Assembly: GCA_030425425.1 (NCBI GenBank)
Contig: JAUIAO010000038.1
Location: 1-59,230 of the forward strand
DNA length: 59,230 bases
From: Bacteroidia bacterium
GTDB lineage: Bacteria > Bacteroidota > Bacteroidia > Cytophagales > Cyclobacteriaceae
Direction: 5' to 3'
Shown one piece after another: positions 13,304 to 48,244 of the stretch. Positions within the stretch are counted from its first letter, which is position 1. Every line of letters starts with the position of its first letter. The notes below the pieces were generated by a model. The model worked only from the letters and a program-made list of their open reading frames with translations, had not been told where the DNA came from and did not search any database. A program made the translations under genes and the position numbers.

Positions 13304-13424
13304 AATTTCAAGATGCTCCAACCAGAGCTTCTTTTTACCGCTAATGGGGATCAGCCAAAGTGCTGGTTCCTGTTTTAACAACTCAACCAAAATACTAATG
13401 AATAATTCGCCAAAACAATCTACT

Positions 13425-24267: not shown

Positions 24268-24438
24268 ATGAAATTGATAAATAAAATTCTTTTGAGCGCA
24301 TTGTCCATCATAGTGATGTTTCCGGTAGCAGCTCAGCCGCCAGCACCACCTGCCACTCCGATAGACGGAGGTTTGAGCCTTCTACTTATTGCGGGAGGAG
24401 CTTATGGTGTGAAAAAAATGATGGATAAGAAAAATTAG
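24268..24438 (+). CDS. Small PID-CTERM-like exported membrane protein, 56 aa
   Basis: The reading frame starts 7 bases after the giant-gene stop. The N-terminus is a signal peptide (KLINKILLSALSIIVMFPVAAQ); then comes a short proline-rich linker (PPAPPATP). The tail is IDGGLSLLLIAGGAYGVKKM followed by basic residues. The PIDGG motif, a single hydrophobic helix and a positively charged end are the signature of the PID-CTERM putative protein-sorting tail found in very small Bacteroidota proteins. That family is thought to be processed or anchored by a dedicated sorting enzyme, but no such enzyme is in this window. Position suggests cotranscription with giant gene 1. There is no equivalent gene behind giant gene 2. 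Confidence 0.75.
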   Translation: MKLINKILLSALSIIVMFPVAAQPPAPPATPIDGGLSLLLIAGGAYGVKKMMDKKN

Positions 24439-24523
24439 TATTACAACAGAGCATTCATTCAGGTGAATAAGTAGATGGCGATCTACATTAGTGAAAAAGG
24501 GCAGCTTCAGCTGTCCTTTTTTT
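24438..24523 (+). other. 3' element of giant locus 1 (structured RNA candidate)
   Basis: Three hairpins in a row: ATTCA..TGAAT (24453-24468), GTAGAT-GGCG-ATCTAC (24471-24486) and the terminator stem GGGCAGC-TTCA-GCTGTCC. The leading GTATTACAACA, the middle hairpin and GTGAAAA are nearly identical to 45441-45519 behind giant gene 2. The first hairpin differs in sequence but is preserved as a stem in both copies. Confidence 0.55.
24494..24523 (+). terminator. Rho-independent terminator of giant locus 1
   Basis: GGGCAGC (24499-24505), TTCA loop, GCTGTCC (24510-24516), then seven T. One G-U pair in the stem. An A-run precedes it. Confidence 0.85.
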
Positions 24524-24560
24524 GTGGTTATAGTACAAAATGTCCTTTACGAGATTTACT

Positions 24561-24638
24561 ATCTGCTAGATAAATTGGATTTACCGGATTAGATTTGATA
24601 AGGTGTAAGCAACATCGTGCTTGCACAGATGTTAAGTA
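24561..24638 (+). repeat. Family C repeat, copy 1
   Basis: TAGATAAATTGG, TTTACCGG, TTAGATTTGAT and an AACATCGTGC-TT-GCACAGATGTT hairpin with one extra A. Near-identical to 47547-47622. Together with the next element it fills the 300-base gap before the SMI1-like gene. Confidence 0.8.
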
Positions 24639-24663
24639 AAAAAATCACATACAAGATGTGATC

Positions 24664-24722
24664 AAAAGGTATATTTGAATATTGGGTAACGCGCATATTG
24701 GGCGTTGCATTAATGTTAGAAA
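24664..24722 (+). promoter_or_regulatory. Family D element, copy 1: promoter-bearing array head
   Basis: TATATTTG (24670-24677) matches the Bacteroidota -7 box TAnnTTTG exactly. It is followed by AACGCGCA..GGCGTT and the GTTA core at TAATGTTAGAAA (24711-24722). The element matches 45995-46057 in sequence. The final 12 bases are the exact inverse of 25244-25255 just behind the next gene. Confidence 0.65.
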
Positions 24723-24737
24723 ACACTACTTGCAAAT

Positions 24738-25250
24738 ATGGACAATAGATGTTTTGATAAATTATTAGAGCTGCAATCAAGTTATCCCAATCAGGTTAAA
24801 CTTTATCAGCCTGCAAGTGAACAGCAAATCCTAATTACTGAGAAATTTCTGAATACCAAACTACATAAAGATCTCATTGACTTATATCTTTTTTCTAATG
24901 GTTTAGGAATTATCGATTACTGCTTTCTTGGGAACGGAAATAAGAAAATTGCGAACCTGATTGACGCTAACTTTACATTTACAAATAGTAATAATTTTGA
25001 TAGGCAGATCGAAATCATTGGAACTTCTGTTGATGAAAGCTATTTCATGAATATGAATTCAGGCAACATCTACCTAAAGGCCACTTATGAAGAAAGTTTA
25101 ATCCATATTGCTTCTAATTTTAACGATTTCTTAAAAGAGTTTATTGATAAACTGGAATACCTACTCTCCATGATCACAGGGGACGATATCATATATTTAG
25201 ATGATGATCAGTTACCTGAAGGCTTCTCCGAGTGGAAATGCGCTTTCTAA
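24738..25250 (+). CDS. SMI1/KNR4 (SUKH)-like immunity-type protein, 170 aa
   Basis: The N-terminus 'QLYQPASEQQILITEKFLNT' type pattern here reads KLYQPASEQQILITEKFLNT, followed by 'DLIDLYLFSNGLGI', the 'L-P-x-x-L-x-x-L-Y-x-x-S-N-G' core that marks the SMI1/KNR4 (SUKH) superfamily. The C-terminal half (ESLIHIASNFNDFLKEFIDKL) fits the usual 'I-A-x-S-F-x-E-F-L' ending. SUKH proteins commonly act as immunity proteins to polymorphic toxins, but many are orphans. No toxin gene is beside it. The gene is promoterless apart from the family D element and is bracketed by a 12-base inverted repeat. It is AT-rich compared with the giant genes, suggesting acquisition. Confidence 0.75.
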   Translation: MDNRCFDKLLELQSSYPNQVKLYQPASEQQILITEKFLNTKLHKDLIDLYLFSNGLGIIDYCFLGNGNKKIANLIDANFTFTNSNNFDRQIEIIGTSVDESYFMNMNSGNIYLKATYEESLIHIASNFNDFLKEFIDKLEYLLSMITGDDIIYLDDDQLPEGFSEWKCAF

Positions 25251-25480
25251 CATTATGTATGAAATGCATGTGCAATGTGCTGCTAGCCAGCTTCACTCTT
25301 TGCCTTCTCCGCTCATCTGCTGCCGTGAGTCATTTTAGACATTTGGTCAGTTCTGTCTGCGGGAGTTTTTATCTTTCTGAACGCAGCATTTCATTAGAAC
25401 CGTTGTAAGCTTCAGCTGATTTCACTACTTTGCCGCACAAGAGCTTATGTCAGGCACATGCATAATACATGGAGTTAGCA
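25244..25480 (+). repeat. Family E long imperfect palindrome, copy 1 (attC-like)
   Basis: Begins in the stop region of the SMI1-like gene (TTTCTAAC, 25244-25251) and ends with GTTAGCA (25474-25480). Paired arms run inward: AAC/GTT, ATGTAT (25255-25260)/ATACAT (25465-25470), and ATGCATGTGC (25264-25273)/GCACATGCAT (25454-25463), with small one-sided bulges. The apex holds CTGCG..CGCAG around a T-rich loop also found in copies at 46564-46793 and 47261-47440. Layout matches integron attC logic; length is well above typical. Confidence 0.7.
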
Positions 25481-25511
25481 AATATTAAACGCTCAAAACT
25501 CACAGAAAACA

Positions 25512-25982
25512 ATGACACATAAACACCTTGCACAATACAACATTATAAGATTAAAAGACGAATTAGATTCACCAATCATAAAGGAGTTTAAAGATTTTCT
25601 TGCACCGGTTAATTTACTAGCAGAAGAAAGTGACGGCTTTATTTGGAGATTAAAAGATGAAAGTGGAGAAAGCGCTACAGATTTAGAAACGCCTTATGAA
25701 GATAAATTGATTTTTGTGAATATGTCAGTATGGGAAAACTATGAATCTCTAAGCGAATACACATACAAAACCGTTCATAGTTATTTTCTAAAAAGTAGAA
25801 AGAAATGGTCAAACGAAATAGAAGGACACAAAGCTGTATTGTGGTATATAGAAAAAGGTCATATCCCTACAATATCGGAAGCCAAAGAAAAACTGGATTT
25901 ATTTAATCAGAAAGGGGCAAGCCCAAAAGCTTTTGGCATGTCAGAAGTATATGATGAGTGGGGCCTGAAATATAAAAAATAA
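25512..25982 (+). CDS. DUF3291-type protein, 156 aa
   Basis: The sequence follows the DUF3291 plan throughout: HLAQYNIIRLKDELDSPIIK at the start, 'PVNLLAEESDGFIWRL', 'LIFVNMSVWENYESL', 'YKTVHSYFLKSRKKW', 'AVLWYIEKGHIPTISEAKEK', and a final region with GASPKAFGM. This is a ferredoxin-like (antibiotic-biosynthesis-monooxygenase-like dimeric barrel) fold of unknown function; no catalytic residue can be assigned. Full-length. It lies between a family E element and a family B repeat. Unlike neighbouring short genes, its flanks do not form a matching inverted repeat, though the stop lies in TAAC. Confidence 0.8.
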   Translation: MTHKHLAQYNIIRLKDELDSPIIKEFKDFLAPVNLLAEESDGFIWRLKDESGESATDLETPYEDKLIFVNMSVWENYESLSEYTYKTVHSYFLKSRKKWSNEIEGHKAVLWYIEKGHIPTISEAKEKLDLFNQKGASPKAFGMSEVYDEWGLKYKK

Positions 25983-26037
25983 CCCTTAGCTGGAGCGAGC
26001 TTGTAGCTCGTGATCAAGAAATAAATCAACGAAATTC

Positions 26038-26240
26038 TTTGCCTCTGCCGGTGTAATCACCGGCAAACGAGATGCAATGAGCTAGTTGCTTTATCTTCAA
26101 TAATGATCGTTGAGACTCAGACAGTTTCCTTTTTAATGAGATGATTTCATAGTCCCGATATTTATTCTAAGTAGTAGCTTTATTCTACCATTCAGGTCAA
26201 ACAACCGCCTGTACTCTAAAGCAGATATTCGAAAATAAAA
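26038..26240 (+). repeat. Family B repeat, copy 1 (long form)
   Basis: Core of about 95 bases: GCCGGTG-TAAT-CACCGGC hairpin, then GCAATGAGCTAGTTGC, then GAGACTCAG. A further 110 bases (GAGATGATTTCA .. AGATATTCGAAAA) are shared only with copy 2 at 27006-27215. The two long copies flank the HigB/HigA-like pair in the same orientation. A CGAGC-TTGTA-GCTCG hairpin lies just before it at 25996-26010. Confidence 0.8.
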
Positions 26241-26330
26241 TTAAGGGAGCAAGTAGATCGGTAAAGTTGAAATTACTTTTCAGTATAATCAGTGTACATC
26301 AAGCGCATTCCATCAAAATTTAATTGTAAT

Positions 26331-26352
26331 AATGTATCCAAGTGAATACATT
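26331..26352 (+). promoter_or_regulatory. Candidate toxin-antitoxin operator
   Basis: AATGTAT (26331-26337) and ATACATT (26346-26352) form a 7-bp inverted repeat ending 5 bases before the toxin ATG. HigA-type antitoxins commonly repress their own operon from such a site. Function is inferred from position. Confidence 0.4.
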
Positions 26353-26357
26353 TACAT

Positions 26358-26675
26358 ATGTATTCCATTGTTAAGACTGATGTATTTGATAAGTGGTTGA
26401 GGAAACTGAAAGACCAACGGGCTAGAGCTAAAATCCTTTTCAGAATTCAGCGGATCGAAGAACAGGGGAATTTCGGCGATTGCGAACCGGTGGGAGAAGG
26501 AATCAGTGAACTCAGAATCCACTATGCCAAAGGATATCGAGTCTATTTGAAGGAACATGCTGGCACAATCGTTCTATTACTAAACGATGGAACAAAATCC
26601 ACCCAACAGACGGACATAGAAAAAGCCAAAAAATTGTGGTCTGACTGTAAAGACGAACTTGGAAATGACGACTAA
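26358..26675 (+). CDS. HigB/RelE-type addiction-module killer protein, 105 aa
   Basis: Toxin of the phage-derived Gp49-like HigB subfamily: MYSIVKTDVFDKWLRKLKD at the start, 'AKILFRIQRIEEQGNFGDCE', 'GISELRIHYAKGYRVYLKE', 'IVLLLNDGTKSTQQTDIEKA' and a closing K-K-L-W helix. All are in the order and spacing of this subfamily (about 100 residues). These toxins are ribosome-dependent mRNA interferases. The toxin gene comes first, as usual for higBA, and overlaps the antitoxin gene by 11 bases. The pair is enclosed by two long family B repeats in the same orientation. This is the second toxin-antitoxin pair in the window and is unrelated to the one at 5780-6285. Confidence 0.88.
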   Translation: MYSIVKTDVFDKWLRKLKDQRARAKILFRIQRIEEQGNFGDCEPVGEGISELRIHYAKGYRVYLKEHAGTIVLLLNDGTKSTQQTDIEKAKKLWSDCKDELGNDD

Positions 26676-26952
26676 AGAAGTAACGAAATTTGATATCGCA
26701 GAATATCTGGATGATGATGCCATGATTGCTGAGTACCTGAACACGGTTCTGGAAGAAGGGGACACTGAAGACATTATCGCAGCGCTTGGGCATGTAGCCA
26801 AGGCGAGAGGAATGACTAGGATCGCCGAGGAAACAGGGCTTAGCCGACCAAGCCTTTACAAGGCGCTTTCCCACGGATCGAAACCTCAATTCGACACTAT
26901 CCTCAAAGTGCTAAGGGCTGTTGGTGGTAACTTGAATATCCATTCTGCTTAA
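26665..26952 (+). CDS. HigA-type helix-turn-helix antitoxin, 95 aa
   Basis: Putative addiction-module antidote: N-terminal 'FDIAEYLDDDAMIAEYLN' is diagnostic for the subfamily that pairs with Gp49-like HigB. 'IIAALGHVAKARGMTRIAEE' leads into a helix-turn-helix with TGLSRPSLYKALS, and the end is 'TILKVLRAVGGNLNI'. It should neutralise the toxin and bind operator DNA. The ATG at 26665 is preferred; a TTG at 26659 would add two residues. It is followed by a CGCAAG..CTTGTG hairpin (26972-26989). Confidence 0.88.
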   Translation: MTTKEVTKFDIAEYLDDDAMIAEYLNTVLEEGDTEDIIAALGHVAKARGMTRIAEETGLSRPSLYKALSHGSKPQFDTILKVLRAVGGNLNIHSA

Positions 26953-26971
26953 GAGGGAAAGGTCCATAAAG

Positions 26972-27215
26972 CGCAAGCATCCGCTTGTGTCCTTAAAAGA
27001 TATTTTTTGCCTTTGCCGGTGTTATCACCAGCAAACGAGATGCCATGAGCTAGTTGTATAACCTCCAGTATTGATTGAGGAAACTCATTCAATTTCCTTC
27101 ATCAACGATCAAAATAAAGTGAGATGATTTCAATGTCCCGGTAATCACTCGAAGTACTAGATTTATTCCCCAACTAACACAAGCATCCACTTGTGCCCTT
27201 AACAGATATTCGAAA
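26972..27215 (+). repeat. Family B repeat, copy 2 (long form) with CAAGCATCC hairpins
   Basis: Core at 27006-27100 (GCCGGTG-TTAT-CACCAGC; GAGCTAGTTG; CAATTTCCTTC), extended to about 27215 like copy 1. It is preceded and followed by the same short hairpin, CGCAAG-CATCCG-CTTGTG at 26972-26989 and CACAAG-CATCCA-CTTGTG at 27178-27195, each followed by CCTTAA.AGATATT. From 27216 to 27350 I see no gene or clear signal. Confidence 0.75.
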
Positions 27216-27359
27216 AGAAATTATGCGAACAGCAGGGCAAGACCGCTATTGAAAATTTAAAACGGATAGGAGCTTGCCAGGTATTTAGTTTTGAAACCTC
27301 TTTTGCCAAACAGGGATTGTTCACAAATCTCTTTTTTCACCACATTTAAGTTAGCGAAG

Positions 27360-27436
27360 TTCATATTTCACAGGATTCCATTCATACTTCACAATAAAGA
27401 GGAGAAATCTTCCCAATCTCACCAAATTCATATTTG
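27360..27436 (+). promoter_or_regulatory. Putative LytTR-type direct-repeat site and promoter of giant gene 2
   Basis: TTCATATTTCAC (27360-27371) and TTCATACTTCAC (27381-27392), period 21 bp. A -7-like box, CATATTTG (27429-27436), begins 37 bases after the second repeat ends. The spacings equal those at 13227-13303. The repeats are better preserved here than at giant gene 1. Confidence 0.65.
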
Positions 27437-27566
27437 AGAATTATTAAGTAAAGTTCAGAAGACCGACCAAACTGGTTTTCTGAATAATTCTTTAAAATCA
27501 GTTCGCACCTGATTCATGTTCAACTCAACCAAAACACTAATGAACATTTCGCCACAACAATCTAAT

Positions 27567-30500
27567 ATGAGACAATTACTAATCATGTTTTTGATGTGCA
27601 TGGGCATCATTGCTTTTGCACAGCCAGGTTTTGACCGTACCGCACCATTCACCACCTTAGAAAGTGCTTCATTCGTCTTTGGCGATATTGATGGAGATGG
27701 AGACGAGGATGTGTTGATGATGGGCGCCATCTCCAATGATGGATACTATTCCCAATTATACACTTATGATCATCCTACAGGATACACGCTGGTGGAATCT
27801 ACGCCTTTTCCGGGTGTTATAAATGGAGCGGCGGCATTTGCAGATATAGACGGTGACCATGACCTTGATCTTTTCATCGTAGGAGCAACGGGTGAGGCTG
27901 GTTCCACTACACCTGCACCGTCCATATCTTCTTTTTACCTGAATGATGGAAACGGTCAATTCACTTTAGATCCGGATAACAATCTACCCGGGAGAATAAG
28001 CTCTGAAGTGGCGTTTGCAGATTTTGATCGGGACAATGATTTAGACCTGATTGTAACAGGTTATGAATCTGTCACAGCTACAGCATTTAATCCGGAATTT
28101 ATCCTGTATGAGAATATTGATGGGGTATTCACCAATGCCAACGGAAGCAACCCTTTTAGTCAGACAGCATCTAATTTTGATATTGGAGATATAAACGGAG
28201 ATACTTATCTGGATATAGTAGCTGCTGGCAAGTCAACTACAGCCAGTCCTGTAAAGATCTATCTCAACCAGGGAGGTTCTCTGACCTTTACTGAAGGAAC
28301 ATCTCCTATATCATTAGGTGCTGCTTTTGTGAAGTTGGCCAATATCAATAGTGATCAGAATTTAGAATTACTTGTTACTGGTCAGACCAATTCAGATTTT
28401 TCGAATCCTGTTGTTTATGCGGCGTTGTATAATAACAATGGTGCAGGGGTATTTTCAGAAGTGCCCAATGATCCTATCGTTGACGTTTTCCTAGCGAATG
28501 CTGATTTTGGAGATTTAGATGCAGATGGTGACCTGGACTTGATTGTGGCCGGTACGGCCTACAACACCACTTATGAAAGAACAACTAAGCATTATGAAAA
28601 TAATAATGGGATTTTCTCGGAAGCTTCTTTGTCAGGTCTCGTTGCAGGTTATGGAGCAGGCCAGGTTTCCATCATTGATATCAATAATGATGGCGATATG
28701 GATTACTTCCAGACTGGAGTGAATGATACTGGTACTTCCAGAGCCATTTTACTGAATACCTACAATGATCAGCCACAATTTGTTGGTGCATTTGCTGCTT
28801 CTTTTGAAGAAAATCTAACAAGTGTTGCATTGGATGCTGACGCCAATGATGGTGATGGAGGAGAGACTGATCAGTCCTTGACCTATGCCATAACAGGAAA
28901 TGGAGCAGATGATGCCCTGTTCATAATTGATAGTGAAACAGGGGAAGTGACTTTTAAGAATTCTCCAGATTTCGAAAGTCCGGCTGATGCAAATGCTGAT
29001 AACAGTTATGAGTTGAATATCAGCATTTTTGATGGTAAAACTATTGTGGATGCAAACTTCACTATTTCCGTAACAGACGGGGATGATGCCCCAATTATTA
29101 CTTCTGCTACTGCTGCCACTTTTGATGAAAATGCAACTGGGGCAGCTTATACTGCGGTAGCTGAGGATATGGAATCTGCCGTAGTTTACACGCTTACCTC
29201 AGGAGGTGACAATGACCTCTTTACAATTGACGACAATTCGGGTGAAGTATCATTTGTTTCAGCACCGAATTTTGAAAGCCCGGCGGATGCCAATGGAGAT
29301 AATACCTATGAAATTGAAATTACGGCGACTGATATTTCTAACAATACGGATGTCATCAATTTGTCCATTTCTGTCAATGATGTTTTGGAAACGCCGTTGG
29401 CAATTTTTTTAGATAATACAGAGATCGGCAGTGGTAATAATGTGGGAGATATCGTAGGTACGTTGACATTTGACTCACCGGATGCTGATCCTCAGGTATC
29501 GTTTGAACTGCCCGGCGGTTATGGTGACAATGCTTCCTTTACTATTGACACAGACAAACTCAAAGCTGCTGTAGTGTTTGATGTGAATACTAAATCCTCA
29601 TATGACCTTCAGATAAGAGCCTATAATGCCAACGGAAACGAATTGTTTGAAACATTTACTATTACGGTGGTATCATCTGTATTCGATCCAAATGCCCTGA
29701 TTGTAACGAATAACAATGACTCTGGAACCGGTTCTTTGCGTGAAGCAATAGTCAATGCTGAACTGAATCCGGGTGCTGATATCATCAACATCGGTTCTGG
29801 TGTTGGTACGATCACTTTAGCTAGTCAGCTACCTGATATTACACAGGATTTAGAAATCAAAGGAGCAGGAAAATACACCACCATTATAGATGGAGATAAT
29901 GCTGTGAGACCTTTCCTGATACTGACCGGAATAGTAACAATTTCTGATCTTACCATTCAGAACGGACTTGGTAAAGGAGGCGACACCTACGGAGGTGGAG
30001 GAGGAGCCGGTATGGGTGGAGCCATCTATATCGATGATGCAGTAGTAACTATAGAGAATGTATCTTTTTCAGGAAATCAGGCGCTTGGAGGAAGCTCCAA
30101 CGTGGGTAGTCATGATGGTGGCGATGGCCCTCTTCCAGGTCTTGGGGGAGCGGAAGGAGAAACTATTAACAATTTCACTACAGGATTGCCCGGAGGCGAT
30201 GGTGGATTTGGAGCCGGTGGAGGACGCGGTGGTTTTGGAACTCAAGGTGCTGGAAGAGGTGGAAACGGAGGATATGGTGCCGGTGGAGGAGGTGGTGAAA
30301 ACGACCCATTCGGAGGAGAACCCGGTGGTTCTGGAGGATCTTTCGGTGGTCGGGGTGGTAGCAATGGAGCTGCAGGAGGTGCTGGTGCCGGACTTGGAGG
30401 TGCCATTTTTATGAGAAATGGAACACTCTCTGTAAACCATTCTGATTTTAATAACAATGAAGCCACGGCTGGAACACCCGGTTCAGGTGGTGGAGCTGCT

Positions 30501-42500: not shown

Positions 42501-45245
42501 GATAGCCATGTTTTCAGTCTTGTTGCTGGATTCGGCGATAATGCAAGCTTTACTATTTCGGGTAGTGAATTGAGCAATGCGGAAGTTTTCAACTACGAAA
42601 CCAAGTCCAGCTATCGCATCAAGGTAATCGTTGATGATCAGAATGGAGGCTCGTTTGAGCAAGAGTTGACCATTACAATTAATAATGTCAATGATGCACC
42701 AACAGCCTTAGCGATCTCTTCTTCTTCAATCGATGAAAACGCTCCTGTGGGTACGCTGATAACTGCACTGTTTGTCAGAGATGATGATGCAGCGGATAGC
42801 CATACATTCAGCCTGGTTGCTGGATACGGAGACAATGCAAGCTTTGCCATCTCAGGTAATGAACTGAGTAATGCAGAAGTGTTTGATTTTGAAACCAAGT
42901 CAAGCTATCATATCAAATTGCTGGCAGATGATCAGAATGGCGGCACGTTGGAATCTGAACTAACTATCACAGTAGAGGATGTCAATGATGCACCACATGA
43001 TATCATGCTTAGCAACAATCGTCTTGATGAAGATGCTGCCCCCGGGTCTTTGATTGGAACACTTTCTACAATAGATCAGGATGCGGGTGATACTCACACT
43101 TACGAGGTGCTGACTACTTTGATCATTGATGATATTGAAATCACGCCCGTTATGGCACAAGGAGCTGACTTGGTTACCGCAATACCTTTGGACTTTGAAT
43201 ACGTTCCTGAGTTGACCATTGAAGTGAAATCTACAGACCAGGATGGCTTGAGCTTCATTAAATCGTTCACACTATTTGCCAACGATGTGAATGAAGCTCC
43301 ATATGAAATAGAGCTTTCTGCTACTTCTATTGATGAGAATTCAGTTATTGGAACGGTAATCGGTGTACTGACTGCATTAGATGATGATCTCAACGATAGC
43401 TTTACATATAGTCTTGTAGCAGGCTTTGGTGACAATGCAAGCTTTACGATTTCCGGTGATGAATTGACCAATGCAAAGGTGTTTGATTTTGAAGCCAAAT
43501 CGAGCTACAGCATCAAAGTGCTTGCAGCAGACCAAGGTGGGTTGACTGTGGAGCAGGAGTTTACCATCACTGTCAATGATCTGGACGAAAGGTTGGACCA
43601 GACAATTACTTTCGAAGCATTAGCAGATAAAACTTTTGGTGACGCTATGTTCACCTTAAATGCCACTGTCACCAGTGGATTAGCTGTGACCTATACTTCA
43701 TCAGATGTGTCAATTTTAACCATAGTCGGCTCTAATGCAACCATAATCGGAGCAGGAGAGGTCACCATCACTGCGAGTCAGCAAGGAAATGATGATTACT
43801 TCGAGGCGGAGGCAGTTTCGCAGCTATTGAAGATCAATAAAGCTTCTCAAACGATCACTTTCGATCTTATTGGAGATCAGCAATTGGGAGTTGCGCCAAT
43901 TACACTTAGTGCAACAGCCAGCTCTGGATTGGCGATAAACTATGAAGTATCTGGTCCGGCAACTATCTCTGATAACTTGCTAACGATTACGGGCGATGGG
44001 GAAGTGGTAGTGACTGCTACTCAGTCTGGCAATGCTAATTACCTGGCTGCTGAGGCCGTAACCCAGACCTTCACAGTGACAGACCCTGCCAAGTCAGATC
44101 AGACGATCACTTTCGATTTACCATCATCTGTTTATGTGACAGATTCACCGGTGACATTGACTGCATCCAGTACTTCTGGTCTCGATGTATCTTTTGAGAT
44201 CGTTGGTGGTGAAAGTTTGGTTTCGCTTTCTGGAGACCAGCTCACCTTGATGGGAGCAGGATCGGTAGAAATCAGGGCTTTCAATGATGGAAATGATGAT
44301 TTCAATAAAGCAGAAGTTGTGATGACTCTTGAAATCAAACCTGTCTTTACTGTCTCTGGTGTGGTGACTGATGAAAACGGCGATGCATTCAGCGCAGGTT
44401 TGGTGGTTATCGTACTGAAAGGTACAACTACACCGACTACTACCACGCTGAATACAGATGGCTCTTATGAGTTCAGCGATTTGAAAGATGGAGTTTACTA
44501 TTTGGGAGTTCAACCTACGGATGTGGCTTCCTATTACACTACGGCCTATGGTGACGTGATCACCTATCAGGATGCTACACCTATTACGCTGACAGAGGAT
44601 GCCTCAGGTATTAATATTCAGATGGTGGCCAAGCCAACTGACAATGAACTGACAGGAGATGGAGTGATCACAGGAAGAGTGATCTCGTCGGAGGTTGGTT
44701 CTGGCAACAGAATTGTGATGGGAGCGATTCTGGAAGGAGATGCTATAGAAGGGGCGTCTATCTTCTTACAGCGCAAGGCTGATAGCAAGATCCTTACGGA
44801 AGTATTCTCTGATGCAAATGGTGATTTTAAGATCTCAGGTGTGCCAGTAGGGTCATTCAGTCTGATCATCAATATTCCTGGCATAGAGGGAGATATAGCC
44901 ACAGACATCAATGTGACGGAGGATGAAGAAATCCTCATGACCGCTGCTGTGAGCGAAGATGGTATCTCATTTGAAACTGAAGTCGTAGAAATTCTGAGTA
45001 TTGATGAGGCGATCTGGAGAGCATATCCTAACCCGGTAATTGACTATGTAGAGATAGAGGTCAATGAAGGAATGCAATCATTCAGCTGGGAGTTGATGGA
45101 TATGAGAGGAGTCAGATTATCATCGGGAACTGTAGATGGTCAGAACCATGTGAAGATCGATATGAGTCAGTTGGGAAATGCTTTGTATTTCGTGCGAGTA
45201 CAGGATGATCAAGGGCATTTCCGAATGTTCAAGATTCAGAAGTAA
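27567..45245 (+). CDS. Giant mosaic T9SS-exported surface protein, about 5,892 aa
   Basis: One uninterrupted 17.7-kb gene, probably a cell-surface adhesin of about 0.6 MDa. In order: signal peptide (MRQLLIMFLMCMGIIAFAQ); FG-GAP/VCBS repeats with D-x-D-x-D-G calcium loops (residues about 28-402); cadherin-like repeats (407-705); four CSLREA-like beta-helices (708-1025, 1407-1788, 1980-2355, 2635-3053), separated by Ig/PKD-like domains; Ig domain split by an NHL propeller (3162-3541); cadherin; Ig split by a second propeller (3740-4088); cadherin; Ig split by a third propeller (4292-4650). The C-terminal part has seven cadherin-like repeats (4650-5340), three Ig/MBG-like QTITF repeats (5342-5588), CNA-B/carboxypeptidase-regulatory-like modules (5590-5803) and a T9SS type A sorting domain with YPNP (5815-5892). 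In-frame ATGs at 27540 and 27516 are less likely starts. Leader and promoter resemble those of giant gene 1. Confidence 0.9.
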   Translation: MRQLLIMFLMCMGIIAFAQPGFDRTAPFTTLESASFVFGDIDGDGDEDVLMMGAISNDGYYSQLYTYDHPTGYTLVESTPFPGVINGAAAFADIDGDHDLDLFIVGATGEAGSTTPAPSISSFYLNDGNGQFTLDPDNNLPGRISSEVAFADFDRDNDLDLIVTGYESVTATAFNPEFILYENIDGVFTNANGSNPFSQTASNFDIGDINGDTYLDIVAAGKSTTASPVKIYLNQGGSLTFTEGTSPISLGAAFVKLANINSDQNLELLVTGQTNSDFSNPVVYAALYNNNGAGVFSEVPNDPIVDVFLANADFGDLDADGDLDLIVAGTAYNTTYERTTKHYENNNGIFSEASLSGLVAGYGAGQVSIIDINNDGDMDYFQTGVNDTGTSRAILLNTYNDQPQFVGAFAASFEENLTSVALDADANDGDGGETDQSLTYAITGNGADDALFIIDSETGEVTFKNSPDFESPADANADNSYELNISIFDGKTIVDANFTISVTDGDDAPIITSATAATFDENATGAAYTAVAEDMESAVVYTLTSGGDNDLFTIDDNSGEVSFVSAPNFESPADANGDNTYEIEITATDISNNTDVINLSISVNDVLETPLAIFLDNTEIGSGNNVGDIVGTLTFDSPDADPQVSFELPGGYGDNASFTIDTDKLKAAVVFDVNTKSSYDLQIRAYNANGNELFETFTITVVSSVFDPNALIVTNNNDSGTGSLREAIVNAELNPGADIINIGSGVGTITLASQLPDITQDLEIKGAGKYTTIIDGDNAVRPFLILTGIVTISDLTIQNGLGKGGDTYGGGGGAGMGGAIYIDDAVVTIENVSFSGNQALGGSSNVGSHDGGDGPLPGLGGAEGETINNFTTGLPGGDGGFGAGGGRGGFGTQGAGRGGNGGYGAGGGGGENDPFGGEPGGSGGSFGGRGGSNGAAGGAGAGLGGAIFMRNGTLSVNHSDFNNNEATAGTPGSGGGAAQSKAGAIFNMAGTFSTYKVSYSNNSAGNAGSTDSDNENIYGNISVLNDLVIEQQPVDQTGLTEGVSLELGVKTSGSVSAYQWQVNDGSGWVEVTDTEPYSGATTDTLSISCLLASMDGLSFRCQIDGVLNDLTTNEVSLGVSALPIMELSLTGNVEVGCVSGETKIYTATVTNAVGTPTYTWYLNDTEITGETSNELTTLVVTDDVVSVTVNDPGVCFDRSLTESVTIIAGPPTVPTVTIEQLSPYCGGVETYTQFGFSHTNAGDNPRIDHWEVNGDWVSLYDEGLYDLREGDVVKVFLEVDDSYSCVAQGTVVTDEFVVSIGEQAVIDFIAHPQDVDATYTEGSSISFSVSAEGADLIYTWEYYDIWDEAWSSDVSGLGTTVTGQGTPNLNIDEVSNWLGGMKIRCSVGEGLLCPQPSEEATINFKYGTITITNTSNDKTVEGSLPWAADQTKYLRPYNGVVTFDAMGISGTIDLQETLSFFPQAILKGPGSENLTITSSSGINVLINSRTELYGAITPLTIEGISVSGGSTYGIASSDDLTLVDVQISNSGYWGLSVSGGTIVLNDVHISNCNYEAFQLSCSSCTGVEARIQNSSFTTSPIGLNLSTSHNVFIENSLFKDNTNDGLYVNYTLGTNIYGSSFINNRNGIRINNGNTTIERSTFSGNSNMGVHILDEGYTFDVVVNSSTIANNQYGISNDFGELLPDVNNSIIVGNTQKDIYGSITSSIGYLAYEKPYNASSLSGVTEYNIVAPISTLIDENLTTDGILMYHEPASCSPVIDAGSTDLTTDQLGDPIVGLPDIGAIELQSGLSPVTVSATINQVSSDICPGEEATFTATPINGGDAPSYQWMINGENAGTDSDTFVTSALQEGDEITVAVTSNSTCQLVENPGVSDPLAVSFSGLPEITQQPVDQSITSSQQATFTATGSGADLTYQWQVNDGSSWVDIADGGIYAGVATNTLTITGAGYTESGNQYRAKVTENCPAYSDPATLTVQLEFVVTTVNDVKDANDGETSLREAMELAWNSNYWAKNGNITADAPIIIDATAISGTMEISSVLPDVYAYLKIIGPSDQSLIIKAATGANVHHFSVGNSNLVGGLTLENIVLRDAVFSGNGGAVTIDKNSLFSAKNCVFENNQGANGGAIWAANTSGANTINLEGCSFIGNIASPGGNGGAIYLNNDGNGILNITNSAFIDNNGTYGGGVAAFNATSTVVNTTISGNVSSNLKGAGLLLASNKANKVINCTIVNNTSPQGSGGIDFSASVSTAQILENNIIIGNSGNQVTVNGYVTGSRNILGTQSSTFGSDNLYAIPIEEVIETTLSDNGGPTLTYNLAACSYALDFVIDPTDNTPELDARGVARIGATDAGALEFNGTRDTSGGTPELTITASQEGVCGTETVTFTATDNADYTYSWFVDDIEQTETSNVLTADVAVGQVVKATIVSSARCLVTNIVSTELTIIQDTEITTPPELMITASQDGVCGTGTVTFTATENVDYTYSWFVDGVDKGEGTNSFTSNVSVGQVVNATIVSNARCLVTNTVSEEMTIATGAVATVDSQPTDQVIDPNGSTSFSVEATGANLTFQWQQQTVTGEWKDLPADVVADNLTYSGEQTATLTISEAMVIGASRDPYIFRCAVAEVCAVYSESAEITFSSFPSGVVTNGNNDGPGSLRQALLDVQYLSGNDNQPYVIDATTITDNIQLTENLPVLNGLHAVINTPADSKLALVNLDNIDGLRFFELTNGASLTIDGVSFTGGKGENGGAISVDNSNLQLTNAIFNSNAASGNGGVIYANNATVTIDSSSFERNTASIGAVIYSENGTFNLHRSNLYYNGADTAGSIYAVGTSYEIDSVTLDYQYASNVASIYLDNSTIGSSILNNLRIIENEANDGGALHLIGDVTFRNSLVYYSYSYGTNAPGAVILESGVEFYNSTLYGNGASAVLLKGGDVKMWNLSFNRSDDYGIFVEDGSNYSISNSIIDGIKGTIGSEYGHNLYYETGEEVLEGNTEGNIVVNSSDYRDVHAGYLINGDGNYLDVPPCSDAINSGITIPGSELDQIGQARVGEPEIGAVEFYGETLTPGQFTFELVASHDDLTVCGDEMIDVTFTMNTSPGAETGYLDYYEYEWRLNGNWVDADVANPVLTLTGMKAGDELEAYVYAEGSKCLNDDYGEATVSVTGLQNSDIQGNPVLNAVVGEEYVYPFYVGGESGVTVTATDGTALPDWLSISENTTPGVLSSIAGSTEGNVDGTGADAQFKWSMRMARDSEGNLYVVDRLNSAIRKIDQNGTVSTITSTLGSGSGYGIVVDGNDEIYYADAGAYVIGKLNASGTPEVYAGNGISYNRTGDLANVGFRYPFDVKFGPDGAMYVADYSANYIMKYADGMFTRLAYVSSPSGIAIDAQNNVYVSSYNVIYKIDSDGNSSVFVGSGSYGLADGKGREASFDGPQGMAFDAYGNLIVADRNNHAIRRVTPDGVVTTLAGGTAGDATGPATDAVFKSPEDVVIDPQTGNIIVADAGNYKIKVLTAAGDFVLTGAPDQAGDFNISLTASSGTCNDDTQSFTISITESDPPVFVTESNVSFDENQTLLNLEIQDASPFTIAITGGSDAALFEIQSGDVAFINTPNFEVPHDSDFDNIYELEITATDAGDRQSVRMFYVDVADANDNPDNISLDNSTVDEFMPAGSLVGVLSATDEDAGDEVVFSLESGTAENDFFYIEDNQLLTKQPFDFDLKSSYILFITATDLYGGISDQKARITINEVTNVAPWFVQVERIELMEDEFFFFTPQVVDRDGDALTVTATQLPDWVTFETYPDSVNYIYEFQRVIEIDENNSYYGITDDNVMYAPFGGTPESLFEPGVISNPPYSGASLAVTPDGTLFVTSGDSIMKYSNGQLTTFYNEGSPNNMAYHPDGYLVFGMQNADFTFTLKKATMDGTVTDIVANMPWDGGTLTVRGNGDIVVPDLENNLTTYTIDGQAGQPIILDIELWDYSDAGVTTPGLYSFIDLAFDKEDNLYVLYTEADGNSNLIDVLVKNTPDGVTELWRSEDAYEAVSLAIDVNGDPSIVASGFIQIIKKNNYILYGEPGAANIGSHPVTLRAEDGTTFTEQTFTIEVGYYNDAPTDLEISGTAIEENNDVETNLFTFTTVDPDAGYDSFTYELVTGEGDNNNNAFKILDDGLQAIESFDYEVVGGTLTIRVKTTDAKGETFEKSFDISVNDVNDVPSDILLSNTSVDEGQLPGATVGQFTTEDQDSDVPFTYALVGASNDNDLFVIEGNILKTKQVLDYSEFASVTIRVSTTDDQGASFEKDITIQINEVSNSLPVLTNAPAATTTVEEVYTYEPMTFDFEGSTVSITATLPDWLLEKSVSASISEVITPNASSNLEIDANGNIYTLVEENYSVVNIEKMDATSGTITTLLTENANSIPFVDVDESGNVFYADNTSYGSYPIYQLGDATPIHYASGDITAGGYHSDGFIVYAETQADYTYDMKKVSLADQSVTTLKEDVGYVAVFDIGADGNIHYSGSNVMSAIDIDGNVVSSIVLQTPTSNASGSYLYYITDVAVYDDGMAYVMFGEADGQGGLADVLVKVTPGGEEELWRGTQIYEAGKIAANSAESVYFLRDETASGSKGVWSYKAGYTYYEGTPAVEDAGNYTLSFTLNDGTADNTFDFDLTVYGNNEVPTAISLSQTDIDENAPLSTVIGTLSATDADVNDEHVFSLVNGFGDNASFDISGDQLSTVEVFDYETKSSYSIKVHVDDQNGGMYEEELTIIVNDRNDVPTAIVLSAIEIDENAAAGTLIGTLSATDQDATDSHTFSLVAGFGDNASFEISGGDITNVEAFDFEIKSSYSIKVLADDQNGGTFEQELNITVNDVNDAPSMIALTANTIDENADVGTLIGLISATDEDAADSHIFSLIDGFGDNASFTISGVEISNAEAFDFETKSSYSIKVLADDQNGGTFEQEFTISVNDVNDAPTMIALSANTIDENAEAGTVIGSLSATDEDVADSHVFSLVAGFGDNASFTISGSELSNAEVFNYETKSSYRIKVIVDDQNGGSFEQELTITINNVNDAPTALAISSSSIDENAPVGTLITALFVRDDDAADSHTFSLVAGYGDNASFAISGNELSNAEVFDFETKSSYHIKLLADDQNGGTLESELTITVEDVNDAPHDIMLSNNRLDEDAAPGSLIGTLSTIDQDAGDTHTYEVLTTLIIDDIEITPVMAQGADLVTAIPLDFEYVPELTIEVKSTDQDGLSFIKSFTLFANDVNEAPYEIELSATSIDENSVIGTVIGVLTALDDDLNDSFTYSLVAGFGDNASFTISGDELTNAKVFDFEAKSSYSIKVLAADQGGLTVEQEFTITVNDLDERLDQTITFEALADKTFGDAMFTLNATVTSGLAVTYTSSDVSILTIVGSNATIIGAGEVTITASQQGNDDYFEAEAVSQLLKINKASQTITFDLIGDQQLGVAPITLSATASSGLAINYEVSGPATISDNLLTITGDGEVVVTATQSGNANYLAAEAVTQTFTVTDPAKSDQTITFDLPSSVYVTDSPVTLTASSTSGLDVSFEIVGGESLVSLSGDQLTLMGAGSVEIRAFNDGNDDFNKAEVVMTLEIKPVFTVSGVVTDENGDAFSAGLVVIVLKGTTTPTTTTLNTDGSYEFSDLKDGVYYLGVQPTDVASYYTTAYGDVITYQDATPITLTEDASGINIQMVAKPTDNELTGDGVITGRVISSEVGSGNRIVMGAILEGDAIEGASIFLQRKADSKILTEVFSDANGDFKISGVPVGSFSLIINIPGIEGDIATDINVTEDEEILMTAAVSEDGISFETEVVEILSIDEAIWRAYPNPVIDYVEIEVNEGMQSFSWELMDMRGVRLSSGTVDGQNHVKIDMSQLGNALYFVRVQDDQGHFRMFKIQK
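41515..43585 (+). repeat. In-gene tandem array of seven cadherin-like units, giant gene 2
   Basis: Units repeat every 294 bases in the best-preserved part (for example GATTTTGAA at 42003 and GATTTCGAA at 42297). Stretches of about 48 bases around 42025-42075 and 42319-42369 differ at only two positions. Each unit encodes IDEN, ATDxDxxDSH, GFGDNASF, KSSYSIKV and DDQNGG motifs. Unit six (about 43000-43290) is divergent and lacks GFGDNASF, as does the last unit of giant gene 1. Confidence 0.85.
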
Positions 45246-45320
45246 GCAGCAATGCGCGAGGTTTAAGAAGATACCTTTCATTAGTGGTTTGAATCACTGA
45301 GACAGTAGAGACAACAGGGC

Positions 45321-45347
45321 GAGAAAAGAACCTTTGGTTCTTTTCTC
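45321..45347 (+). terminator. Strong hairpin terminator behind giant gene 2
   Basis: GAGAAAAGAACC and GGTTCTTTTCTC form a perfect 12-bp stem around TTT, 75 bases after the stop. The trailing TGTGTTT is only moderately T-rich. Confidence 0.6.
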
Positions 45348-45440
45348 TGTGTTTACAATTTCTCTGAGGTTTCGAAATGAGTTATTGTTTAGGTCATCTG
45401 GCTTGACTCCAGTTAGAAAGAATTGATTGGAGAAATAGAG

Positions 45441-45519
45441 GTATTACAACATCCCATTGGGATATAGTAGATGGCGATCTACGTTAGTGAAAAGGGCAGC
45501 TTCGGCTGCCTTTTTTTTT
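45441..45519 (+). other. 3' element of giant locus 2 (structured RNA candidate)
   Basis: Hairpins ATCCC-ATT-GGGAT (45451-45463), GTAGAT-GGCG-ATCTAC (45467-45482) and terminator GGCAGC-TTCG-GCTGCC with nine T. GTATTACAACA, the middle hairpin and the spacer match 24438-24523. Position is 195 bases after the giant-gene stop and behind another hairpin, so it may be separately transcribed. No start signal was identified. Confidence 0.55.
45489..45519 (+). terminator. Rho-independent terminator with UUCG tetraloop
   Basis: GGGCAGC (45494-45500), TTCG, GCTGCC (45505-45510), then nine T. C(UUCG)G is an unusually stable tetraloop. Confidence 0.88.
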
Positions 45520-45560
45520 GCGTTAAATTCCTTTCTCAATGAGTTTTTATGGTCATCATA

Positions 45561-45735
45561 CGCTGTGCAGGACGGTTTCGGAGAGCCTCGGTAATGCCAT
45601 GCGCTGTGCAGGGCGGTTTCGGAAAGCTCCGGTGAAGCCATGCAGAGCGCAGGACAGTTTCGGAGAGTCCCGATGGAGCCATGCGCTGTGCAGGACGGTT
45701 TCAGAGAGTCCCGGTGGAGCCATGCGGAACGTAGG
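45561..45735 (+). repeat. 41-bp tandem repeat, four full copies and a decayed fifth
   Basis: CGCTGTGCAG or variants recur at 45561, 45602, 45643 and 45684 (exact period 41), each followed by GACGGTTTCGGAGAG-like and GCCATG-like segments. The fifth unit at 45725 is degenerate. GC content is higher than the surroundings. The period is not a multiple of three, so open frames here are not genes. There are no unique spacers, so it is not a CRISPR array. From 45736 to 45990 I see no gene or clear element. Confidence 0.9.
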
Positions 45736-45994
45736 GGACTTTCGTAGGCACCAACATGACCAAAGTGAGATGGATATTGATAGATATCCATTTATATAAG
45801 TACTTATGTTTGCATCTGAGCAGCAATTATCCATTAATTTGAATAATACAGTAAGAGTGAACCACCATACATTAAAAACAGGGTTTAGTGTAACCTTGGA
45901 AACATATGAAGGTTCATAAACCAATTCTAGGTGTTAAGCTGTGTAAAAAGTATCAATGATCAATTTTCGTTTAATAAGAAGTAATTTGAGATAC

Positions 45995-46057
45995 TGATCA
46001 GATATATTTGAATATCTAATAACGCGCACAGTGCGCGTTGCGTTAATGTTACTTGCC
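45995..46057 (+). promoter_or_regulatory. Family D element, copy 2: promoter-bearing array head
   Basis: TATATTTG (46003-46010, exact TAnnTTTG), then a perfect AACGCGCAC-A-GTGCGCGTT palindrome (46021-46039), GCGTTAAT, and GTTACTTGCC (46048-46057). The last 10 bases are the exact inverse of 46564-46573 at the end of the next gene. It matches 24664-24722. Confidence 0.65.
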
Positions 46058-46065
46058 ATTACTGC

Positions 46066-46572
46066 ATGACCGCAAAAGAGAAACAGAAAAACTTCATCAA
46101 GAACTACCTGAAACCAACTCTCAAACAGGCTGGCTATTCAACACAAGGACAAACCTGGTGGATGGCGGAGAACGAATTTTTTAAGATCATAAACCTCCAG
46201 AACTACTCTTGGAACAGTCAAGATTCAGTAGACTTTCGATTTAACATCGGGATTGGGCTAACTGCAACAATGAAAGACCCGGAAAAGAAAAAAGCAACTT
46301 ACAACGACCTAACAGTTCATGTAACCGAACATTATCACCTTCCAAGGACCAGACAGAAACATCGTTTTCTGAACAACCAAGGTTACAGCATCACAACCTC
46401 GACTAACCTAGAAGACTTTACGAACGAACTGCAAAAAGACTTTGAACTTGGCATTATTCCAGCACTGAACGGGCTAACAACTCTTGAGGATTGCCTGAAC
46501 TTCTACAAAGGTGCTGACTTCTGGTACGAACAACTGAAACGGCAACTCGCAGAACTAAAAGACGGCAAGTAA
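46066..46572 (+). CDS. DUF4304-type protein, 168 aa
   Basis: Fits the DUF4304 family: an N-terminal 'NYLKPTLKQAGYSTQGQTWW' helix-strand unit, 'FFKIINLQNYSWN', and 'DFRFNIGIGL', the 'I-N-x-Q-x-S..F-x-I-N-x-G' core. A C-terminal helical half follows, with LEDFTNELQKDFELGIIPAL. Members are small soluble proteins frequently found as orphan or immunity-type genes near toxin loci; no biochemical role is established. The stop codon TAA lies within GGCAAGTAAC, the inverse of GTTACTTGCC located 8 bases before the ATG. It is the first gene behind a promoter-bearing family D element and is followed by a family E palindrome. Confidence 0.75.
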   Translation: MTAKEKQKNFIKNYLKPTLKQAGYSTQGQTWWMAENEFFKIINLQNYSWNSQDSVDFRFNIGIGLTATMKDPEKKKATYNDLTVHVTEHYHLPRTRQKHRFLNNQGYSITTSTNLEDFTNELQKDFELGIIPALNGLTTLEDCLNFYKGADFWYEQLKRQLAELKDGK

Positions 46573-46793
46573 CAGACGCTGATCGGGCATATGTCTTAGT
46601 GCTTTCTGGTAGGTTTCAGTGCAACTCGCCCGTGAATCTGCCGCTGAGAAATGGCATTACTTTCTACCAACTTCTGTGCGCAGGAGGTTTTGACTTGCGG
46701 AACGCAGTGCCATTTGGAACCGTTGTGAGCTTCGGCAGATTTCACTAGATTCGTGCTATTCACTAGCTGCGGCCGCATAGCTAGACGTTGGCG
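46564..46793 (+). repeat. Family E long imperfect palindrome, copy 2 (attC-like)
   Basis: Starts with GGCAAGTAAC at the DUF4304 stop and ends with GTTGGCG (46787-46793). Clear inner arms: GTGAATCTGCCG (46632-46643) with CGGCAGATTTCAC (46733-46745, one bulged base), and AAATGGCA (46649-46656) with TGCCATTT (46708-46715). Outer parts pair more loosely (GCTGATCGGGC near 46579 with GGCCGCATAGC near 46771). The 3' half (GAACGCAG.. AACCGTTGT.AGCTTC) is shared with copy 1. Confidence 0.72.
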
Positions 46794-46854
46794 TCCATTC
46801 CAACCAATATTGCATATTATGAATCTTAACTGAGAAACGAACAAAACTCTTAAA

Positions 46855-47253
46855 ATGAGAACCTTCCAATTAATTCTAATAATTTCAACTTTCCTTTTAA
46901 CATCATGCGTTGATGAATCTGTTGACCTTAATGATATTGAAGGAACTTACGAAGGAACTTTTATACGAACCTCTCCTAACGCCAAATATGCACCCTCTCA
47001 AGTAACACTGATATTTTCGAATGGTCAATTTCAAGGAGCAAGCGAGACAACCAAGTATCCGGCAATATGTAGTGGAACCTATGAAATAAAGGGAACTAAG
47101 GTCGACTTTGCTAACTCATGTGTCTGGACAGCTGAATTCGACTGGTCATTGATTCTTTCAGGTGAATTCACAGCAGAACTAACATCTAACGAACTAACTC
47201 TCCAACGAAAAAATGGAAGTACTTGGGATTTGTACGAACTAAAACGCAAATAA
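46855..47253 (+). CDS. Small lipoprotein, lipocalin-like, 132 aa
   Basis: A type II signal peptide ends in LLTSC (Cys18 lipidation site). The mature part reads as a small beta-barrel: IEGTYEGTFIRTSPN, 'QVTLIFSNGQFQGASE', CSGTYEIKGTKVDFANSC and 'LTLQRKNGSTWDLYELKRK', the alternating strand pattern of lipocalin-like or META-type small lipoproteins. Two cysteines (in AICSG and NSCVW) could form a disulfide. Function unknown. The gene is bracketed by GTTGGCGTCC (46787) and GGTCGCCAAC (47258-47267), an inverted pair with one mismatch, as if it were one mobile cassette. Confidence 0.7.
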   Translation: MRTFQLILIISTFLLTSCVDESVDLNDIEGTYEGTFIRTSPNAKYAPSQVTLIFSNGQFQGASETTKYPAICSGTYEIKGTKVDFANSCVWTAEFDWSLILSGEFTAELTSNELTLQRKNGSTWDLYELKRK

Positions 47254-47257
47254 AGAC

Positions 47258-47440
47258 GGTCGCCAACAAGCGCTAGCACGAATGCGCCAACTGCCATTTT
47301 ACAAGCTTCAGTGCGAACTTCACCATGAATCAGCCGCTGGTAAAGTTCAGTGCTTTCTACTGGGCGCATCTCGCAGGATTTTTCATCTTTCTTTGCGCAG
47401 TGGTTATCTGATACTTTGGAAGCACCGGGCAGATTCATTT
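47258..47440 (+). repeat. Family E long imperfect palindrome, copy 3, apparently truncated
   Basis: Begins GGTCGCCAAC after the lipoprotein gene. Inner arms ATGAATCAGCC (47325-47335) and GGGCAGATTCAT (47428-47439), and an apex (CGCAGGATTTTTCATCTTTC..GCGCAG) like the other copies. The outer 3' part seen in copy 2 is missing; a family B repeat begins immediately. Confidence 0.65.
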
Positions 47441-47532
47441 GCCTTTGCCGGTGTTATCACCGGCAAACAAGATGCAATGAGCTAGTTGCATTACCACCAA
47501 TGATGATCGAAGAGACTCAGTCAATTTCCCTC
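47438..47532 (+). repeat. Family B repeat, copy 3
   Basis: Core only: GCCGGTG-TTAT-CACCGGC hairpin, GCAATGAGCTAGTTGC, GAGACTCAGTCAATTTCC. It abuts the family E element on its left and a family C element on its right. Confidence 0.82.
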
Positions 47533-47546
47533 GGCAAAGAGTCAGC

Positions 47547-47622
47547 CCGTTAGATAAATTGGATTTACCGGGTTAGATTTGATGATGTGTTAGCAACATA
47601 GTGCTTGCAAGATGTTATCAGC
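47547..47622 (+). repeat. Family C repeat, copy 2
   Basis: GTTAGATAAATTGG, TTTACCGGGTTAGATTTGAT, AACATAGTGCTTGCAAGATG, ending GTTATCAGC (47614-47622). Near-identical to 24561-24638. GTTATCAGC is the inverse of GCTGATAA(T) at the end of the next gene. Confidence 0.8.
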
Positions 47623-47633
47623 AATGACTGCAA

Positions 47634-48110
47634 ATGGGAAGAAACCTCCTCAAAGACCATAGAATTACGAATAACCTGAAAAGTCAATACTTTAGAGATA
47701 CAACTTTTGACGGACTAACAGTCTTTGCAGGAAAAATCATCGACTGTGAATTCTTTAACATCCATTTCAAACATTGTCAACTGGGGAGCAACACAAAGTA
47801 TTCTAACTGCATATTCAGGAACTGTAGAATAGAGGGAAAGTATAGTACTCTTGGTAATCCAACAACCTATATCAACTGTACTTTTGAAAACTGTAACTTC
47901 AAGGGTAATATGGTTTTTATGGGGGCTATATTCGAACATTGCCGATTTTCCGGAACATTTACCAACAACATATTTATAGACGAAAAACGCTGGTTTAAGA
48001 AGTGTTTTACATTCACCAATTGCGATTTAACGAACGCCAACTTTGTAAACTTGACAATTAATGGCGAACGAACTTTCAAAAACTGCAAACTACCTGACCA
48101 ACAAAGCTGA
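47634..48110 (+). CDS. Pentapeptide-repeat-like protein, 158 aa
   Basis: Repeating short units with Phe, Cys or Leu at the centre and Asn/Asp/Thr at the edges are visible throughout: 'FRDTTFDGLTVFAGKIIDCE', FFNIHFKHCQL, 'CIFRNCRIEG', 'CTFENCNFKGN', 'AIFEHCRFSGT', FTFTNCDLTNANFVNL. This is the pattern of a right-handed quadrilateral (pentapeptide) beta-helix, with relaxed A(D/N)LXX units. Some such proteins mimic DNA and protect gyrase, but there is no direct evidence for that here. The ATG at 47634 starts 11 bases after the family C element. The stop lies in GCTGATAA, inverse to GTTATCAGC before the gene. Confidence 0.7.
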   Translation: MGRNLLKDHRITNNLKSQYFRDTTFDGLTVFAGKIIDCEFFNIHFKHCQLGSNTKYSNCIFRNCRIEGKYSTLGNPTTYINCTFENCNFKGNMVFMGAIFEHCRFSGTFTNNIFIDEKRWFKKCFTFTNCDLTNANFVNLTINGERTFKNCKLPDQQS

Positions 48111-48147
48111 TAATAGGCCTTTAGCTTCACCACATTGAATTATTCCT

Positions 48148-48244
48148 TTTGCTTTTTTGCAGGTGTTATCACCGGCAAATGAGATGCCATGAGCTAGTTG
48201 CATTACTTCCAGAAATGATCGATAAGACTCAGTCAATTTACTTC
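48148..48244 (+). repeat. Family B repeat, copy 4
   Basis: Core only, slightly degenerate at the left (TTTTTTGCAGGTG), then TTATCACCGGCAAATGAGATG, GAGCTAGTTGCATTAC and AGACTCAGTCAATTTACTTC. From 48245 to 48396 no further element is recognised. Confidence 0.78.

Follow-up and report, generated by a model that had tools for sequence, protein, structure and literature searches.

Two small cassette groups in a Cyclobacteriaceae genome that probably belong to integrons whose integrase has no I2 helix

Integrons, including sedentary chromosomal integrons and clusters of attC sites lacking integron integrases (CALIN, for which two or more attC sites matching the IntegronFinder covariance model, with no IntI nearby, are required), hold co-oriented single-gene cassettes in which GTT and AAC boxes pair within the cassette; the cassette unit includes its attC site, recombination shows a bottom-strand bias and the attI site adjoins the integrase gene. 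The classical intI gene reads away from the array. The Xer enzymes (XerA, XerC and XerD), whose domain layout has no I2 helix, are known for chromosome dimer resolution. Here we describe a stretch of 59,230 nt (the window; contig JAUIAO010000038.1 of assembly GCA_030425425.1, Bacteroidia bacterium, Cyclobacteriaceae) that contains two partly decayed cassette groups, A with two cassettes and B with three, each preceded by a palindromic leader. From their sequence we conclude that these are, with high probability, two small groups of an integron-like capture system, namely integrons whose integrase carries no I2 helix. The features of the window are as follows, with boxes scored over ten bases (GTT plus seven).

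24567..24634, plus strand: second-type leader (attI-like), no cassette of its own seen; 91% to 47551-47617, with weaker own-genome matches on contigs C13 and C15.
24668..24714, plus strand: first-type leader of group A, an attI-like palindrome with TATATTTG; 94% to the stretch 3' of the recombinase stop codon on C91.
24715..25251, plus strand: cassette A1, box to box (24715-24724 against 25242-25251, 9/10); SUKH-1 (SMI1/KNR4) gene at 24738-25250 (Pfam).
25242..25483, plus strand: attC-like site of A1 including both boxes, core 25305-25435 (profile match); outer arms pair in the fold.
25474..25982, plus strand: cassette A2, start box 25474-25483 (box scoring) and DUF3291 gene 25512-25982 (Pfam); 3' box not found.
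46003..46047, plus strand: first-type leader of group B, 90% to the C91 leader; 88% identical to the C113 flank up to GTT, where a different cassette follows.
46048..46573, plus strand: cassette B1, box to box (46048-46057 against 46564-46573, 10/10); DUF4304 gene at 46066-46572 (Pfam).
46564..46796, plus strand: attC-like site of B1, core 46615-46756 (profile match); right arm appears shortened against relatives (arms by eye).
46787..47267, plus strand: cassette B2, box to box (46787-46796 against 47258-47267, 9/10); gene at 46855-47253 with no Pfam match.
47258..47437, plus strand: attC-like site of B2 (profile positions 1-130 of 142), truncated at the start of an own-genome repeat at 47433-47529.
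47551..47613, plus strand: second-type leader 5' of B3 (own-genome matches).
47614..48114, plus strand: cassette B3, box to box (47614-47623 against 48105-48114, 8/10); pentapeptide-repeat gene at 47634-48110 (Pfam).

An initial annotation of this DNA had proposed gene cassettes bracketed by four inverted pairs. All four pairs are in place, and the first three (24715/25242, 46048/46564 and 46787/47258) are strong, matching at 9/10, 10/10 and 9/10, while the fourth (47614/48105) is weaker than had been thought, at 8/10. The genes are co-oriented and attC-like sites follow them, which supports the cassette reading. For the start box at 25474, 5' of the DUF3291 gene, the best partners match at only 8/10 and none ends in AAC. 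The missing end box of A2, the shortened right arm of the B1 attC (by eye) and the B2 attC that is cut by a repeat are signs of decay.

The spacer between B1 and B2 belongs to a repeat family. The stretch 46573-46790 was matched in 7 of the 19 genomes searched, including 6/6 of the genus, and its core in 19/98 genomes drawn from the family. A 142-base profile found 63 core matches in the window and 40 loci (one copy twice, in overlapping loci) and zero in 10 loci from other genera. Copies of the repeat are strung together in co-oriented arrays, such as the roughly seven cassettes at the start of C11 (L011). Box pairing was scored with 62 cores, the overlapping copy being dropped, and 35 pairs of neighbouring cores separated by less than 3.5 kb. 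In 17 of the 35, the start and end of one cassette form a perfect inverted match of at least 10 bases, and the other 18 have an inverted match of at most 8; among non-neighbouring core pairs, about 1.6% match at 10 bases or more. Fifteen of the 17 matches start with GTT, 27-40 bases to the right of one core and 22-36 to the left of the next; the window pair 46787/47258 lies outside these 15 because it reaches only 9/10. These results support the earlier suggestion that the complementary boxes belong to one cassette and not to its neighbour. Chains of at least three perfect 10-base cassettes occur at 13 of 121 loci, the longest with seven cassettes, and at none in shuffles.

The unit that moves can be judged from duplicated cassettes. 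At L130 (Arenibacter arenosicollis) two identical copies of a 777-base unit are present, one adjoining an attI and the other an attC, and their identity stops at the right-hand GTT and, on the left, one base short of GTT. At L198, on a 4.63 Mb contig from a genome of the window's family, a 764-base stretch is present twice, 9.4 kb apart, at 99.7% identity, and both copies are bounded at most 4 bases from GTT. These dispersed duplications indicate, at the sequence level, that the moving unit is GTT, gene and attC, up to the next GTT. A tandem copy at L197 (99.9% over 891 bases) could alternatively stem from homologous recombination. A cassette shared by L084 and L059 at 64% begins at -3 and reaches the contig end.

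The leaders tie these cassettes to a recombinase. The first-type leader, of about 50 bases, has five copies in the genome and opens both window groups; it also lies directly 3' of the stop codon of a tyrosine recombinase (C91) and of a recombinase tail at the start of C11. The second type precedes cassette B3. The window shares 495 bases at 88% identity with contig C113 upstream of B1, as far as GTT, and beyond that point the cassettes differ. Across the phylum, a palindrome followed by GTTR stands behind the integrase stop codon in 34/78 cases against 22/638 controls. Where integrase-linked leaders have room downstream, seven of nine have a partner of at least 9/10 (eight leaders of the genus plus L062 from another, with L063, which has no room, and L019, whose cassette start has no GTT, excluded). 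The palindrome of the leader probably acts as attI, and TATATTTG, which resembles a Bacteroidota promoter element, would serve as the cassette promoter (Pc in classical integrons). That the locus had no integrase, as first proposed, holds for the window, where tblastn found no integrase relic (best E 0.72), and not for the genome: a tyrosine integrase elsewhere had been suggested as worth seeking, and I2-less recombinases stand behind this same leader on C91 and C11, with a further one on C10. The window groups may be fossils, or may be served in trans by integrases elsewhere.

The recombinases are Xer/IntI-like, but by their sequence the IntI-specific segment (I2, about 40 residues) is missing, so that the integrase appears to be without the protein part thought essential for cassette capture. 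The NCBIfam model NF040815 (XerA/integron integrase) was the best match for six of seven proteins, above cut-off in four; TIGR02249 was best for L063, and all seven fell below the TIGR02249 cut-off. None of the 19 genomes searched, the window genome and five of the genus included, gave a match above this IntI cut-off. XerA was the closest solved structure and IntI4 the third, and in the alignment with IntI4 63 of its residues face 20 of the array recombinase. The spacing from the K motif to HxxR is 58 in 31 of 36 rows labelled as array, 59 in one and 63 in one, with 3 unmeasured; it is 66 in 4/6 XerC/D rows (2 unmeasured) and 100 in 7/13 IntI rows (6 unmeasured). The array label takes in leader-only rows (among them L063, L079, L096, L111, L124, L127, L140, L147 and L154), and rows labelled as other may carry arrays beyond the sequence examined. 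In a structure model of the Ekhidna integrase, the stretch bounded by the residues that align with the K motif and with HxxR is predicted to contain just two helices, at 182-195 and 212-226; with a mean predicted local distance difference test score (pLDDT) of 83.8 and a predicted template modelling score (pTM) of 0.69, the model serves as supporting evidence only.

In a tree of 69 rows (L056, L059, L149, L202, L203 and L204 left out, two further IntI rows taken in, trimming improved), IntI forms a single clade with support 100/100. The I2-less rows and IntI fall on one side of the branch from XerC/D, also at 100/100, with a program warning that long branches join there; placing IntI nested among, as opposed to beside, the I2-less rows gave p 0.409 in the approximately unbiased test. 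The recombinases share with Xer enzymes a domain layout without I2 and differ from them in adjoining cassette arrays and in grouping with IntI.

Several side observations concern these proteins. In the recombinase copies of two species (L053, 2107-2985, and L019, 838-1609), one and the same conserved motif bears a short insertion. A gene resembling a single-strand-binding protein follows the recombinase directly in L082, L065 and L066; a general link was dropped, as a motif scan found it in 1/33 loci (L082), and L065 and L066 were recognised by eye only. A related recombinase, L203, lies on a Sinorhizobium plasmid adjoining an IS91 transposase, so the wider recombinase group has other settings.

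We also examined the anatomy of the attC-like sites. Folded singly, the sites were not significantly stable (z 0.54, -1.73 and 0.99), and the A1 fold as a whole was no stabler than shuffles; structure was therefore tested on sets of sites. Between two perfect-box cassettes lie 83 sites in 31 loci, taken without hand filtering, of which 82 entered the stem and bulge analysis (L142 omitted). Their boxes consist of GTTR and six variable bases and come in 77 distinct forms. An A follows R'' and a C precedes R' in 71/83 sites, giving G-T pairing on the bottom strand only. Folding favours the bottom strand in 61 sites and the top in 21 (23/31 per locus, p 0.011). As a control, 20 IntI loci of the phylum were searched similarly with 9-base boxes; 14 of them yielded sites, 59 in all, and the 50 measuring 60-170 bases were used. 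A single-base bulge in the L'' arm is the expected form of extra-helical bases. A stem was present in 48 of the 50 IntI-array sites, 43 of these with the L'' bulge and 1 gap-free; the inner stem was present in 77/82 I2-less sites, of which 42 are gap-free, 27 have an L'' bulge and 17 an L' bulge. Among I2-less cores shorter than 200 bases, 31/46 stems are gap-free, against 1/48 in IntI arrays, and 10/46 have the L'' bulge. G-T pairs number 130 on the bottom to 14 on the top strand in I2-less sites, and 30 to 6 in IntI arrays. Sites of the window family, at about 230-243 bases, are longer than the 57-142 bases given for classical attC in the accessible part of PMC2727003, where classical pairing often spans 9-11 bases, so a 10-base box is not itself unusual. 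An Rfam search returned nothing at gathering scores.

A genome scan retained the 80 loci most similar to the query, nearly all from Bacteroidota. In 30 of them the contig ends less than 400 bases from the integrase stop. In 15 of the remaining 50, a 10-base box is found within 200 bases, with its partner 200-3000 bases downstream, compared with 24/1000 control windows, and some of the 15 may be chance. The possibility, raised in the initial annotation, that such flanks are absent from other copies or stand beside random genes equally often is opposed by this excess, the box rule and the chains, with the reservation that AT-rich start triplets chain too. In L094 and L148 the integrase is immediately followed by an array of seven cassettes, and similar loci of integrase, leader and array are present across Bacteroidota.

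A number of results weigh against our interpretation. The window holds 13 GTT-type inverted pairs of at least 9 bases where 20 Markov resamples average 10.45. Inverted pairs alone therefore prove nothing; it is their position, not their number, that surpasses chance. When other start triplets were tried at 120 loci, chains of at least three were found at 13 loci with GTT, 12 with TTT, 8 with AAA and 6 with ATT, the remaining triplets giving at most 3 and AAC 0, and the longest chain had 7 cassettes with GTT and 4 with any other. AT-rich triplets thus match by chance, and the argument turns on how long the chains are and where they lie, not just on how many there are. Of the nine leaders read by hand, L054 and L057 lack a partner. 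The cassette shared by L106 and L138 has differing attC cores in its two genomes. Longer I2-less sites carry the L'' bulge in 17/31 and are gap-free in 11/31, and many related recombinases have no array in the sequence examined. Neither an excised circle nor an empty site at strain level was observed.

Three other explanations were weighed. The groups might be classical cassettes of the CALIN type, left behind or served by an IntI elsewhere. The box rule, the attC size range and the array form are indeed as in integrons, and IntI occurs in other classes of the phylum (57/198 sampled genomes); the absence of any match above the IntI cut-off in the 19 genomes, the leaders directly behind I2-less recombinase genes and the cores below 200 bases, mostly without the L'' bulge that marks 43/48 IntI-array sites, make this unlikely. 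As a side observation, the 57/198 genomes with true IntI above cut-off, all but one outside the window's class, exceed what the accessible part of a RefSeq survey suggests. Still less probable are transposon-like units ending at the boxes, in which the private pairs would be terminal repeats and the attC core a fixed spacer. The homology limits of the older cassette shared at 79% by L106 and L138, at -1 and +6 of the boxes, fit such units, yet the dispersed duplications at L130 and L198 take in the attC up to the next GTT, and a box-bounded unit was rejected for this reason, which already disfavours the explanation. We give almost no credence to inverted repeats arising by chance near ordinary genes with terminators: the near-chance pair count of the window and the chaining of AT-rich triplets speak for it, whereas the fixed place beside cores, chains that reach seven cassettes, leaders standing behind recombinases and duplicated units have already refuted it for the family, and single weak pairs such as that of B3 could be chance.

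The integron-like reading is compared with classical integrons as follows. Tandem co-oriented single-gene cassettes, R''/R' complementarity within the cassette and movement of the cassette with its attC are shared, and a palindrome plus GTTR, probably functioning as attI, adjoins the integrase gene. An IntI with I2 is missing; the integrase is I2-less, and the putative attI lies directly behind its gene, which reads toward the array. Architecture, box rule, unit of movement, linkage of integrase, attI and array, the missing IntI segment and the strand-biased G-T pairs are what the sequences themselves show. In the mechanism we propose, the gene of a tyrosine recombinase runs right up to a palindromic attI-like site, and its product would recombine this site with the attC-like sites that close single-gene cassettes at their 3' end. 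Each such cassette opens with GTTR and six variable bases and has the complement of this box before its own attC stem. The I2-less recombinase would carry out the cassette recombination. It would act on the folded bottom strand, which in classical integrons recombines with a double-stranded attI; the G-T strand bias and the folding bear on this point indirectly.

The cassette content was examined in 127 cassettes, some nested pairs being counted twice. The main open reading frame (ORF) runs in the array direction in 118, is reversed in 3, and no ORF of 50 aa is present in 6; the stop codon lies 1-33 bases before the R'' end in 88/118. The Pfam families are SUKH-1, DUF3291, DUF4304, pentapeptide, PIN_8, DUF3885, Fic, carboxypeptidase-regulatory-like, DUF7674 and LprI, and several cassettes have none. 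The content fits immunity and orphan genes, judged by the families seen and not by enrichment.

Elsewhere in the window, one cassette group follows each of two giant ORFs (13344-24260, 3638 aa, and 27516-45245, 5909 aa). A repeat with a hairpin-like start occurs at 26034-26129, 27006-27108, 47433-47529 and 48156-48243, one copy cutting an attC; three weaker copies lie on C13 and none was found in five other genomes searched. Between two copies is a pair of Gp49-like toxin and HI1420-like antitoxin genes (26358-26952, Pfam). Imperfect repeats of about 82 bases at 45557-45747, upstream of group B, are present on C113 too. Synteny in sister species did not yield an empty site: the GDSL lipase beside group B was found in 1/6 genomes of the genus and the rhodanese in 5/6, at 35-52% identity outside the window genome.

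No description of a cassette system with an I2-less integrase was found in the open-access literature, a search short of most subscription papers and preprints. Such a system would escape screens that select on the I2 domain, as the accessible text of two integron surveys (PMC9668308, PMC2426708) indicates they do by way of the IntI additional domain; for Bacteroidetes proper, the corresponding text of IntegronFinder 2.0 (PMC9024848) mentions one complete integron, that of Salinibacter ruber. We lean slightly towards a second integron class through Bacteroidota, in which capture would proceed without the I2 helix and the bottom strand would be chosen by G-T pairs and not by extra-helical bases. 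Since I2-less integrases group with IntI on a branch separate from XerC/XerD, this class may preserve the state from which IntI arose. If the system works as read here, the origin of integrons would become testable and a large hidden pool of mobile genes would be exposed.

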